From the NCBI GenBank assembly GCA_031258505.1, contig JAIRMT010000020.1, positions 1-38,696 of the forward strand: a stretch of DNA of 38,696 bases, given 5' to 3'. The notes beneath the pieces were generated by a model. The model was not told where the DNA came from and searched no databases. It was given only the letters and a program-made list of their open reading frames with translations. This document shows positions 3,588 to 32,335 of the stretch, piece after piece. This DNA is from Treponema sp. GTDB taxonomy: Bacteria; Spirochaetota; Spirochaetia; Treponematales; Breznakiellaceae. Position numbers and translations under genes: made by a program. Position 1 is the stretch's first letter. Each line of letters opens with the position of its first letter.

Positions 3588-3729
3588 CTCATGTTACGCG
3601 GGAAGAAAAAACGGTAAGAATTTATCATCGAATGGACGCTGATATACGCGAATATTTCATTTCTCTAAAGAAAATTCGCGTTCATTCGCGTCATTCGATG
3701 ATCTTTTTCTTTCCGGCGCGTAAGGTGAG
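3588..3729. repeat. MITE/REP-like imperfect palindromic element, copy 2, flanked by TTAATAT direct repeats
   Basis: CTCATGTTACGCGGGAAGAAAAA...TTTTTCTTTCCGGCGCGTAAGGTGAG; TTAATAT at 3581-3587 and 3730-3736. Confidence 0.82.
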
Positions 3730-3752
3730 TTAATATGGGATAATAACACGGA

Positions 3753-3985
3753 TACTCTCCAAGACCAAACGGATACTCTCAGAGACTCAACGGATACTCT
3801 CAGAGACCAAACGGATTACTCTCAGAGACCAAACGGATACTCTCAGAGACCAAACGGATACTCTCCAAGACCAAACGAATACTCTCAGAGACCAAACGAA
3901 TACTCCCAGAGACCAAACGGATACTCTCAGAGACTCAACGAATACTCTCAGAGACCAAACGGATACTCTCCAAGACCAAACGGAG
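3753..3985. repeat. Minisatellite, 21-bp unit (cggatactctcagagaccaaa), about 11 copies
   Basis: Direct reading; units differ mainly at CAGAGACC/CCAAGACC and GGAT/GAAT; one unit is 22 bp. Confidence 0.97.
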
Positions 3986-10859: not shown

Positions 10860-11110
10860 GAAACGAGTCATTCGTTGCAAGCAGCGCATCATTCGTTGCA
10901 AGCAGCGCATCATTAGTTATAACTGGCGCATCACTACTTGTAACTAACGCATCACTACTTATAAGGAGCGCATCATTACTTGTAACTAACGCATCATTAG
11001 TTGTAAGGAGGGCATCACTATTTGTAAGGGGCGATTTATTAGTTTGACTAACGCATCATTAGTTGTAAGGAGCGCATCATTAGTTGTCAGGGGCGCATCA
11101 CTAGCTATGG
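10860..11110. repeat. Minisatellite, 21-bp unit (gcgcatcattagttgtaagga), about 11 degenerate copies
   Basis: Repeated GCATCA(C/T)TA(G/C)TTGTAA at 21-bp spacing; starts shortly after the 10807 stop. Confidence 0.92.
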
Positions 11111-23595: not shown

Positions 23596-24873
23596 ATGAA
23601 TGATATGTCATACAGTCGCGGAGGAACCGGAACCCTCGTCAAGATAGCGTTCCGCAATATGTTCAGGAATATGCGGCGCACCATGTTTTGCGTCATATCA
23701 GTGGGCATCGCGGTGTTCTTTATCGTCTTTTATTCATCAATGATTGAGGGGCTGTTGAACAGCATGCACGAAGTGGTGCAGGTCTTTGAGTTAGGAGACG
23801 TGCGCGCTGTGTCCGCGCAGTACGAGGCGGAAAGCGAATACAGCCCTGTGCAGTACCCCGTCGCAGAGGGCAAGAGCCTTACCGCTGTAATAGAACAGGT
23901 TAAGGCCATACCCGGAGTCAGGGCAGTGTTCCCCCGCATAATGGCATACGCCACCTTGCAGGAAAGCGTGGTGAAGCACGCGAACCTCTGGGGCATAAAC
24001 ATGAACGAGGAGATTAAGGTAAATAACTTTAACCTCACCGACCGCACAGACGGCTTGGTACAAGGCCGTTACCCCGCGCTTGACAGCAACGAGTGCGCCA
24101 TCGGCCTCAAGTTCGCCGAAAAGACTGGACTTAAAATCGGCGATCGCCTTCCCTTGAAAACCATATCCGCACAGTTCTCTGACAAGATGTGGTCTCCGGT
24201 GATCACCGGCATCTTCCGCTTTGACTACGCCAAGATGGATGGCGAAGCCATCATCGCGGACTTCAGCCGCCTCCAGCGCCTTTTGGTACTGGAAGACGCA
24301 AGCCAACAGATCGTGGTCTACGCTGACAAGCCTGAAATGAGCGGGACCATTGCCCATGAGATGGAAAAGATATTCGGTCCCGACGATGTGGTCAGCCAGT
24401 GGAACGAGCAGTACTGGATCGTCATGATGAATATGTACCAGCCCCTGTTCTACGCAATCTACCTGATATTCCTCGTTGTCGCCTGTTTCCTGATTGTCAA
24501 TACCATTGCCATGATTATCCACGAGCGGATTAAGGAGATTGGCATGATGGGAAGCCTGGGCATGACTCGCGGTGAAATCGTGAAAGTGTTCTTCTTTGAG
24601 TCAGTCTTTCTGTCCATGCTAGGCGCCACTATCGGAGTGCTGGTCGGCGGGACTTTGACCGGAATCCTCCAGAACTACCCTATTCGCTGGACAGCCATTG
24701 CTGGAGAAAGCACCTTTGCCGAGCTGCCCTCAGCCAACGCCATATTCATGGACTTCAGTTGGCTCAACCTGCTGCAAAGCTGGTTCATGGGTGTAGTAGT
24801 AGCGTCTCTGTTTACCCTGTTTCCGTCGCTTAAAAGCGCGTTTGTCGAGCCAGTGGAGGCGCTTCGACGGTAG
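23596..24873 (+). CDS. FtsX/MacB-like ABC transporter permease
   Basis: FRNMFRNMRRTMFCVISVGIAVFFIVFYSSMIEG; LIVNTIAMIIHERIKEIGMMGSLGMTRGEI. Confidence 0.92.
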   Translation: MNDMSYSRGGTGTLVKIAFRNMFRNMRRTMFCVISVGIAVFFIVFYSSMIEGLLNSMHEVVQVFELGDVRAVSAQYEAESEYSPVQYPVAEGKSLTAVIEQVKAIPGVRAVFPRIMAYATLQESVVKHANLWGINMNEEIKVNNFNLTDRTDGLVQGRYPALDSNECAIGLKFAEKTGLKIGDRLPLKTISAQFSDKMWSPVITGIFRFDYAKMDGEAIIADFSRLQRLLVLEDASQQIVVYADKPEMSGTIAHEMEKIFGPDDVVSQWNEQYWIVMMNMYQPLFYAIYLIFLVVACFLIVNTIAMIIHERIKEIGMMGSLGMTRGEIVKVFFFESVFLSMLGATIGVLVGGTLTGILQNYPIRWTAIAGESTFAELPSANAIFMDFSWLNLLQSWFMGVVVASLFTLFPSLKSAFVEPVEALRR

Positions 24874-24983
24874 ATAGAAAGTAGGGATACGGGAAATAGA
24901 AAGTAGGGGATGCGGGAAATAGAAAGTAGGGGATACGGTAGATAGAAAGTAGGGGATACGGGAAATAGAAAGTAGGGGATGCG
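24871..24983. repeat. Short tandem repeat, about 23-bp unit (gtaggggatacgggaaatagaaa), about 5 copies
   Basis: Direct reading; begins at the stop codon of the second permease. Confidence 0.92.
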
Positions 24984-25022
24984 GCTTGCCGTATCACAAC
25001 AAAGCAAGGGTACGGCAAGCCG
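24982..25022. promoter_or_regulatory. Perfect 12-bp inverted repeat CGGCTTGCCGTA ... TACGGCAAGCCG between permease and lolA-like gene
   Basis: Arms at 24982-24993 and 25011-25022. Confidence 0.8.
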
Positions 25023-25043: not shown

Positions 25044-25799
25044 ATGAAAAAGATTATAGCAGCGGTATTAGCGCTCGTTATGGCAGCGGGCATGGTTCTG
25101 GCGCAATCAGCGCCTTCGGCATCGCCAACAGCGATGGAGCTTCTGCGTCGTATTGACGACAACGAAATCTACGACACGATTCAGTATGAAGGCAGCATGA
25201 TAATCCAGTATCAGGGGCGCAGGTATGTAAAGACCATGCGAGCATGGGCGCGGGGAAACAGCGACAGCTTCATTGAGTTTACCAACCGTGAAGACCGCGG
25301 CACAAAGTACCTCAAGACCAATGGCCGACTCTATGTTTACTCGCCGGACACTGAGGAAGTGATGCTCATCAGCGGCCACATGCTGAAAGAGAGCATGATG
25401 GGGTCAGATATGTCTTATGAGGACACCATTGACAACGGCTCGCTGGAGAGCCGCTACACGCCGAGTATTACAGGTTCGGAGAACTGGAATGGGCGCGCCT
25501 GCTGGATACTGGAACTGACGGCAAAGAAGCGCGCGGAAAGTTATCCCAAGCAGAAGATGTGGATAGATAAGGCAAACGGCGATATGCTCCACTCCGAGCA
25601 ATACGCGCTTTCCGGCGCAAAGTTGAAGGAAGTAACAGTACTCAAGGTTCAGGAATTTGGCGGACGCCGTTTCCCGGTAGAAATCGAGATGCGCGATCTC
25701 CTCCGCCGCGACAGCAAGACCACCTTCACCATGAGTAACGTTATTCTGGATGCGCCCATCGCGGACTCGGTATTCAGCCAGCGGAACCTGAGCCGCTAG
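25044..25799 (+). CDS. Outer membrane lipoprotein-sorting protein (LolA-like fold)
   Basis: Signal peptide MKKIIAAVLALVMAAGMVLAQ; YEGSMIIQYQGRRYVKTMRAWARGNSDSFIEFTNREDRGTKYLKTNGRLYVYSPDTEEVMLISGHMLKESMMGSDMSYED. Confidence 0.88.
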   Translation: MKKIIAAVLALVMAAGMVLAQSAPSASPTAMELLRRIDDNEIYDTIQYEGSMIIQYQGRRYVKTMRAWARGNSDSFIEFTNREDRGTKYLKTNGRLYVYSPDTEEVMLISGHMLKESMMGSDMSYEDTIDNGSLESRYTPSITGSENWNGRACWILELTAKKRAESYPKQKMWIDKANGDMLHSEQYALSGAKLKEVTVLKVQEFGGRRFPVEIEMRDLLRRDSKTTFTMSNVILDAPIADSVFSQRNLSR

Positions 25800-25833
25800 T
25801 GCGCGTTATGTATGAATGCGCCCCGCCGCAAGG

Positions 25834-26374
25834 ATTAGGGTGTCCAATCCTAGAGGATTAGGGTGCGCAATCCTATAAGGATTAGAGTGCGCAATCCTAT
25901 AAGGATTAGGTGTTAGTTCCTAGAGGAACTAGGTGTTAGTTCCTAGAGGAACTAGGTGTTAGTTCCTAGAGGAACTAGAGGTTAGTTCCTAGAGGAACTA
26001 GAGGTTAGTTCCTAGAGGAACTAGGTGTTAGTTCCCATAAGGAACTAGAGGTTAGTTCCCATAAGGAACTAGGTGTTAGTTCCCATAAGGAACTAGAGGT
26101 TAGTTCCCATAAGGAACTAGGTGTTAGTTCCTAGAGGAACTAGAGGTTAGTTCCCATAAGGAACTAGGTGTTAGTTCCTAGAGGAACTAGGTGTTAGTTC
26201 CTAGAGGAACTAGGTGTTAGTTCCTAGAGGAACTAGACGTTAGTTCCTTATAGAAACTAGGTGTTAGTTCCCATAAGGAACTAGGCGTTAGTTCCTATAA
26301 GAAACTAGGTGTTAGTTCCCATAAGGAACTAGGTGTTAGTTCCTATAAGGAACTAGGTGTTAGTTCCTAGAGGA
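25834..26374. repeat. Array of about 23 small hairpin units (23/24 bp), AATCC/GGATT-type followed by TAGTTCC/GGAACTA-type
   Basis: 3 units CAATCC(TAGA|TATAA)GGATTAG then 19 full + 1 truncated TAGTTCC(TAGA|CATAA|TATAA)GGAACTA units. Confidence 0.97.
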
Positions 26375-26421
26375 TGACGCGCTAACACAGACGGCGCTGA
26401 CAACGTCGTCCGTGTTATATG

Positions 26422-27795
26422 CTATTTTTTAATATCTTTGAGGTAGTACTGATCGCTTGAGAAAAACTCTTTGGTAAGTTTTGCCACAAGAGGGCTTAAA
26501 ACCAATATCGTGATCAGATTGGGCAGGATTATCAGCGCATTGGCAAGGTCAAGCACGGCGAGAATCGCCTCTACTCCGAAAAAAGCGCCCAGCATGACGC
26601 TAAGCGTATAGATGACGCGGGTATATTTTGAAATCCCTGTATTGAAGAAAAATTCCACCAACTTTTCGCCGTACCAGATGACGGCGATAATGCTTGACAG
26701 GGCAAAGAGGAAGAGGGAGATGGTAACAATATAAGCGCCTGCATTGCCCAGCACTTTTTGGAACGCGGCTGCGGACATGGTAAACGCCATATCCGCGCCG
26801 ATCTCTTTCCATACACCGCTTGACAACACTACCAGACCGGACATGGTACAGACAAGACCATCAACCAAAACCTCAAAAACGCCCCAGAATCCCTGACGCA
26901 CCGGGTGGTCGGTAATGGCCGCTGCGTGGGCCATGGGAGCGGAGCCCATGCCCGCTTCGCAGGAATAGGTCGCGCGGGCAAGACCCATGCGGATAGCCAT
27001 AGACGCCCCAGCACCCATAAAAGCTCCGGCAGCTGCGGTTCCGGTAAAAGCTGACTTGCATACCAAGATCAGGGAGGGAATGATATTGTCCGCATAGGAA
27101 AATAGTACGACCAGAGAGCCTATAAAATACAGCACGAACATGATTGGCACCATCTTGTCAGCAGTTTTAGCCACGCGGATAAGCCCGCCTAACACCACAG
27201 CGCCGACCAGCACCATCAATATTGCGCCAGCAAGGTACTTGTTGATACCCATAGTTTCAGCGTTCTGAATCAGAGAGATGGATTGAGTAGCTATGGACGG
27301 CAGGTAGTATACCATAGCGACGAACGCTCCGGCGCGAGCCATGGCCTTGCCAACAGACTTTATGGGAAACCCCTTGGTCATGTAATAACCGGGTCCGCCT
27401 ATATAGTGTCCGTCCGCGTTTTTTTGCCGAAAGTGAACGCCCAGCACAACCTCAGTGAATTTAGTAGCGCCCCCTAACAGAAAAATCACCCACATCCAGA
27501 AGAGCGCTCCAGGACCACCGAAAGCAACAGCCGCCGACACTCCGACGATATTTGAAGCGCCGATAGTGGAAGCCATAGCTGTAGCAGCCGCCTGAAAGGG
27601 GCTTACCGTGCCTTCTCCCTTGCCTTTGTCAAAGATTCTGCCAAAGGTCTGTTTGATGATGTAGGGCAGATGCCGGATCTGAAAGAATTTGAGCCTGATG
27701 CTAAGGTAGATTCCCCCGCCCACCAGTCCAACCAAGAAGAGGAAATTCCAAAAAAAGCCTGAAATAGCCCCCACAACCGTAAAAAAGCTCTCCAT
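26422..27795 (-). CDS. Alanine/glycine:cation symporter (AGCS) family protein
   Basis: QAAATAMASTIGASNIVGVSAAVAFGGPGALFWMWV; GGPGYYMTKG; MESFFTVV start with AAGGAG RBS preferred over 27855. Confidence 0.93.
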   Translation of the reverse strand: MESFFTVVGAISGFFWNFLFLVGLVGGGIYLSIRLKFFQIRHLPYIIKQTFGRIFDKGKGEGTVSPFQAAATAMASTIGASNIVGVSAAVAFGGPGALFWMWVIFLLGGATKFTEVVLGVHFRQKNADGHYIGGPGYYMTKGFPIKSVGKAMARAGAFVAMVYYLPSIATQSISLIQNAETMGINKYLAGAILMVLVGAVVLGGLIRVAKTADKMVPIMFVLYFIGSLVVLFSYADNIIPSLILVCKSAFTGTAAAGAFMGAGASMAIRMGLARATYSCEAGMGSAPMAHAAAITDHPVRQGFWGVFEVLVDGLVCTMSGLVVLSSGVWKEIGADMAFTMSAAAFQKVLGNAGAYIVTISLFLFALSSIIAVIWYGEKLVEFFFNTGISKYTRVIYTLSVMLGAFFGVEAILAVLDLANALIILPNLITILVLSPLVAKLTKEFFSSDQYYLKDIKK

Positions 27796-27886
27796 AATAG
27801 CACACTCCTTAGAAGATTTACCCATAGCGCCATAACAGAGCTGCCGCAGCGCCATCGGCTAATATAATGAGGGCGTAAGCCCTTAT

Positions 27887-32208: not shown

Positions 32209-32335
32209 GAACTAAGCGGACTATCTTCTGAACTAAGCCCACTATCTTCTGAACTAAGCGCGCTATCTTCTGAAGTAAGCGCGCTATCTTCTGAGATAAG
32301 GCGACTATCTTCTGAAGTAAGCGCGCTACAAAATG
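32209..32335. repeat. Minisatellite, 21-bp unit (ctatcttctgaactaagcgcg), about 6 copies
   Basis: Direct reading; exact 21-bp spacing. Confidence 0.95.

Follow-up and report, generated by a model that had tools for sequence, protein, structure and literature searches.

The 38,696-nucleotide window analyzed here, from a Treponema sp. of the family Breznakiellaceae, holds a long run of tandem hairpin units between two convergent genes, and within that run one block of units has a stem different from the rest and is itself paired. The locus raises the question of why both arms of a stem should change together, which the initial annotation had attributed to selection or a conversion mechanism that preserves pairing. 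We found that the array is one of numerous hairpin satellites that lie between genes in a spirochete family. The spirochetes that carry such arrays are probably termite-gut members, as indicated by bin naming and by the habitat known for Breznakiellaceae.

The array extends from approximately position 25829 to 26380, and the roughly 23 units reported earlier between the convergent genes were recovered as three AATCC/GGATT units, 19 units of the TAGTTCC type, and one truncated unit. When the sequence was split into units, the left block (25829 to 25912, plus strand) resolved into a partial unit and the three AATCC/GGATT units (25842 to 25912), with loops TAGA, TATAA, and TATAA in that order. 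The main block (25913 to 26359, plus strand) consists of 19 units of 23 or 24 bp with the stem TAGTTCC/GGAACTA, and the truncated unit closes the array (26360 to 26380, plus strand). The count of 19 full units stood, but two of them, at 26240 to 26263 and 26288 to 26311 (both plus strand), have GAAACTA rather than GGAACTA, so that one arm alone is changed and the stem is left unpaired. The unit at 26240 also has the loop TTATA, the reverse complement of TATAA. The loops of the main block (nine TAGA, seven CATAA, two TATAA, and one TTATA) are interspersed, as had been described. The 7-nucleotide linkers (12 AGGTGTT, 5 AGAGGTT, 1 AGACGTT, and 1 AGGCGTT) are asymmetric, with no inverted copies in the window array. 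Single-strand folding gave −125 kcal/mol, compared with −53 ± 4.6 kcal/mol for shuffled sequence (z = −15.7), and this fold together with recurrence in the same genome places the array far beyond chance. Rfam models searched against the window at gathering scores gave 0 matches. We agree that the array is not CRISPR, as loops and linkers are 4 to 7 nucleotides long and recur many times, with no unique spacers of constant length. The head-to-tail, near-identical, noncoding units, with a copy number that varies between loci, are those of a minisatellite or satellite.

The gene on the left (25044 to 25799, plus strand) encodes a protein of 251 amino acids that is conserved in the genus, and the gene on the right (26422 to 27855, minus strand) encodes a protein of 477 amino acids that is symporter-like by sequence. 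A hairpin read between the array and the symporter-like gene (26384 to 26416) is likely the terminator of that gene, and a hairpin of similar form occurs at the same place in G003 (MAG Treponema sp. Gsp477_bin62). In both G003 and a second relative, G004, the left gene is followed directly by mutually similar sequence, which looks like another reading frame or following gene, and no array is present. The symporter-like gene of G003 lies elsewhere and does not adjoin the left gene. The window array thus marks a synteny break with respect to these relatives.

The TAGTTCC array was found at at least six further places in the same genome, on contigs C154, C118 (two sites), C20, C47, and C42, with 76 to 91% identity, and a diverged form is present in G003. 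Read unit by unit, these sibling arrays have a constant left arm, mostly TTAGTTCC, facing right arms GGAACTA, GGAACGA, and GGATCAG, with GGAATGA in G003. Since several of these right arms do not fully match the left arm, pairing is not strictly kept in the siblings, and unpaired arms have been amplified, for example GGATCAG facing TTAGTTCC. An array in G001 was considered as an orthologue beside the C118 array and rejected, as the two lie on opposite sides of a homologous block and so at different sites. The AATCC stem had no other occurrence and no donor across the 200 family genomes searched. Import from a known family was accordingly rejected; because the stem is absent elsewhere in those genomes, the three AATCC units look like a private block that may have arisen in one event rather than by repeated compensation. 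Outside Treponema there were four single pattern matches that, by our rough estimate, look compatible with chance. We set apart one of them, in a Tannerella MAG (L069:3560-3620), where GGAACGAGGTGTTAGTTCCAGCTTGGAACGAGAGG resembles the G003 units and chance, transfer, or contamination is possible.

To place the array in context, we surveyed four genomes of the genus, over contigs totaling approximately 970 kb, for arrays of at least three copies. Array density was 10.6 to 13.3 per 100 kb (approximately 12), a figure somewhat raised by the partial selection of contigs for holding a TAGTTCC-like array, and was 0 to 3.3 per 100 kb in four genomes outside the genus (35 to 60 kb sampled from each). 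A density of this order seems high for a bacterium, and the arrays often lie at contig breaks. The dominant periods in the genus were 21 and 23/24 bp, with period 21 the commonest in the sampled contigs of G000 (26 arrays). The 23/24-bp class is strongly palindromic, whereas the 21-bp class is hardly above shuffles: a palindromic unit (P ≤ 0.05) was present in 24 of 44 arrays of period 23 to 25 and in 4 of 45 arrays of period 20 to 22, and the noncoding arrays of the 23-to-25 class had a mean stem of 5.5 compared with 3.3 for shuffled units. Inclusion of the 21-bp arrays in the same superfamily was rejected, as they are not palindromic above shuffles and their shared k-mers fall within the shuffled range.

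Other repeats were noted in the course of the survey. The window itself has four more intergenic arrays of period 21 (9 to 290, 3748 to 3984, 10868 to 11104, and 32209 to 32328), whose units are mutually unrelated and not palindromic above shuffles, and a 23-bp array (ACGGGAAATAGAAAGTAGGGGAT, 24867 to 24984), without a clear palindrome, that overlaps one gene at its end. Tandem 7-bp arrays occur at L012:14841-14922, L021:1-118, L049:1-118, and L102:1-118; several close contigs with pure repeat over approximately 118 bp, a pattern suggestive of assemblies breaking at a k-mer limit. Another dispersed repeat, containing ATGGACGCTGATATACGCGAATATTTCAT, lies beside several arrays, at 3700 to 3790 of the window and in the flanks of L011, L041, L093, and L097.

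A search for the same architecture with different stems, which had been suggested earlier, returned many 23-bp arrays with stems that differ yet are mostly paired. Many have a common layout, the linker AGGCTTA followed by a 6-nucleotide arm, a 4-nucleotide loop, and a 6-nucleotide arm. A 6-4-6 palindrome preceded by AGGCTTA was counted 54 times in 0.97 Mb, compared with a mean of 0.33 for shuffled tags, although most of the 54 are tandem copies and therefore not independent. Only seven matches in the 0.97 Mb were nontandem, and six of those lay inside degenerate arrays. The heptamer occurred in 4 of 26 nonredundant arrays among the sampled 23- to 25-bp units, where the top 7-mer of shuffled units reached a maximum of 3. 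The pattern AGGCTTA-N16-AGGCTTA occurred in 32 of the 200 family genomes and in 12 of 59 genera, against a handful of matches for the reversed control; as the linker was fixed, this search gives no measure of its conservation. The window array, with its AGGTGTT linker, would be a member of this superfamily, judging from the same layout and the related linker. Arrays from two different genera (L228 in G181 and L097:7150-7864 in G000) mix the same two stems, GTTATG and GTTCAC, suggesting either transfer or an old common ancestry.

Pairing was then compared between and within arrays. Between arrays, we used 57 distinct 30-mers with the AGGCTTA linker, picked by hand at one or a few per array. In this set 81.9% of stem cells pair, compared with 50.3% in shuffled and at most 44.2% in slid controls; 106 cells changed on both sides where 34 were expected, and the covariation score was 0.736, compared with 0.194 shuffled and at most 0.224 slid. 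The set includes related arrays, which makes the shuffled control generous, but the slid control keeps that relatedness and is still far lower. Whole-stem switches between adjacent units were observed directly at L227, from GATCGG/CCGATC to GAGTGG/CCACTC, and at L228, between GTTATG and GTTCAC. Paired stem replacement is general between arrays, and some arrays change stems from unit to unit. To this extent the proposal that both arms change together was upheld. Selection on pairing inside an array was not: within 13 arrays (180 units, counted apart from the AATCC block and the mosaic arrays L227 and L228), there were 61 one-sided arm changes, 3 two-sided changes that were unpaired, and 0 that were paired. 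Unpaired stem changes, which the initial annotation had named as counting against its reading, thus occur in part, as one-sided changes within arrays and as unpaired arms in the siblings. In contig C60 of G181, GTTCAT/ATGAAC units adjoin GTTCAC/ATGAAC units, an example of a paired change lying next to an unpaired intermediate.

We favor, with somewhat better than even confidence, the explanation that the array is a hairpin-unit satellite belonging to a lineage-specific 23/24-bp superfamily of Treponema-like spirochetes, one that changes by whole-unit copying and by template switching from arm to arm. The unit would consist of a directional 7-nucleotide linker, of the AGGCTTA type in general and AGGTGTT here, followed by a stem of 6 to 7 bp with a loop of 4 to 5 nucleotides. 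Arrays would grow and shuffle by copying of whole units, through slippage or unequal recombination. Because whole units are copied, both arms of a stem would move together, and because the linker is the sequence in common, blocks with different stems could be joined. Occasional template switching between hairpin arms would copy one arm to the other and invert the loop, and over time may restore pairing after one-sided mutations. Template switching is known to homogenize arms and to invert spacers (PMC8604942, PMC8794818). Among 38 variable AGGCTTA-type arrays, 7 held a loop together with its own reverse complement, a modest excess over the null mean of 2.5 (P about 0.009), and a linker together with its inverse was found in none of 21 arrays walked by stem. 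A short loop hairpins more easily than a 7-nucleotide linker, which could explain the asymmetry without selection. We infer the step that restores pairing from its outcome, as no compensated change was seen forming in the 13 arrays counted. Copying of units with occasional template switching would account, in the absence of selection, for paired replacement between arrays and one-sided change within them, and no cellular function is needed to explain the features of the array. A linker that is common across genera with differing stems, on the other hand, is not predicted by a purely neutral process unless there is spread between species or a constraint on the linker.

A functional array, in which the hairpins are protein-binding or nucleoid sites or a structured RNA and selection keeps the linker and the pairing while leaving stem sequence free, would account for the very stable fold and for a linker common to 12 genera with stems that differ yet pair. 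We regard it as unlikely, given that sibling arrays amplify unpaired arms, that changes within arrays are uncompensated, and that most family genomes are without the AGGCTTA pattern. Nor was there any bias in linker orientation or gene position over the 24 AGGCTTA-type arrays with two flanking open reading frames, by simple calls: the linker strand was the same as that of codirectional neighbor genes in five cases and opposite in seven, and the flanking pairs were convergent in 5, divergent in 7, and codirectional in 12. An intrinsic terminator or RNA element was rejected on the same 24 arrays for want of a consistent position and strand. A rather doubtful candidate is a family-wide system in which an enzyme or binding protein would recognize the 7-nucleotide linker beside a hairpin whose own sequence is free, and would build or maintain the arrays; stems would diversify while linker, unit length, and pairing were kept.

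The closest precedent for these arrays is BrickBuilt of Porphyromonas gingivalis (PMC4596501), which likewise has 23-nucleotide spacerless tandem units, intergenic and at many loci per genome, with predicted stem-loops. BrickBuilt forms a single element family whose leader and tail segments bear terminal inverted repeats similar to the ones in IS5-family elements, whereas the arrays here have many stem families with a common linker and mostly no terminal inverted ends. Carriage of a minisatellite in such a MITE would fit the several arrays of G000 that adjoin MITE-like ends, GGATAAACGCATAGAAAT. It is an improbable explanation of the window array and was rejected in general for most of the 63 arrays tested: inverted repeats spanning the flanks were found at 4 of the 63, two of them with a GGATAAACGCATAGAAAT end, and the window array has none; G003 is rich in arrays but has few GGATAAACGCATAGAAAT ends. 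Approximately 38 such ends occur in G000, where some elements enclose a 23-bp array; MITE-like elements with inverted GGATAAACGCATAGAAAT ends were seen at L034:4249-4685 and L097:7001-8090.

Still less probable is mobilization by a Y1 (RAYT) transposase, in which the unit would be a REP-like element and the arrays extended BIMEs. The tag and variable-stem palindrome do resemble GTAG- and CGTC-tagged REPs (PMC3733652), which likewise combine a short intergenic palindrome with a directional tag that stays unpaired, and the genome has six Y1_Tnp genes. The arrays here, however, have a different tag (linkers of AGGCTTA or AGGTGTT type, neither GTAG nor CGTC), are strictly tandem in one orientation, are practically absent as single copies outside arrays, and had no linked RAYT. 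The two linker types were sought at each of the six Y1_Tnp loci, where isolated linker heptamers alone turned up. The flanks read, covering portions of five loci, carried GTGCCAGAGAC/TGGCACC repeats, and a RAYT link was rejected. The GTGCCAGAGAC/TGGCACC-type repeats, seen with Y1_Tnp genes at L063, L064, L065, L066, and L067, may be the true REP-like partner of the transposases. That a block junction or the whole array is an assembly artifact is very improbable: several arrays do lie at contig ends and short reads cope poorly with long repeats, but similar mosaic arrays occur in other genomes and the sequence flanking the window array is unique on each side. As the arrays come from metagenome bins, 55 to 82% complete in the genus and apparently from short reads, lengths and unit order may be wrong.

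Two other repeat types bear comparison. The TAACTGA-type heptamer direct repeats (PMC4679880) are likewise intergenic tandem sets of a conserved heptamer, patchily distributed across lineages, but there the heptamer is itself the repeat, whereas in the present arrays heptamer and covarying hairpin alternate. Bacterial satellites (PMC6749651) include noncoding tandem arrays in a spirochete genome; that survey reports transposed families of long-repeat satellites in Leptospira interrogans and Methanocella conradii only, and a satellite type combining a linker with variable stems does not appear in the portions consulted. Treponema is absent from its text, and a partial literature search returned no published account of such arrays in these spirochetes.

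Stem covariation is routinely taken as proof of functional structure. In these spirochetes, pooled arrays covary strongly, yet the changes within every counted array are all uncompensated. The combination of strong covariation between arrays and only uncompensated changes within them therefore offers a natural test of copying and template switching alone producing covariation.
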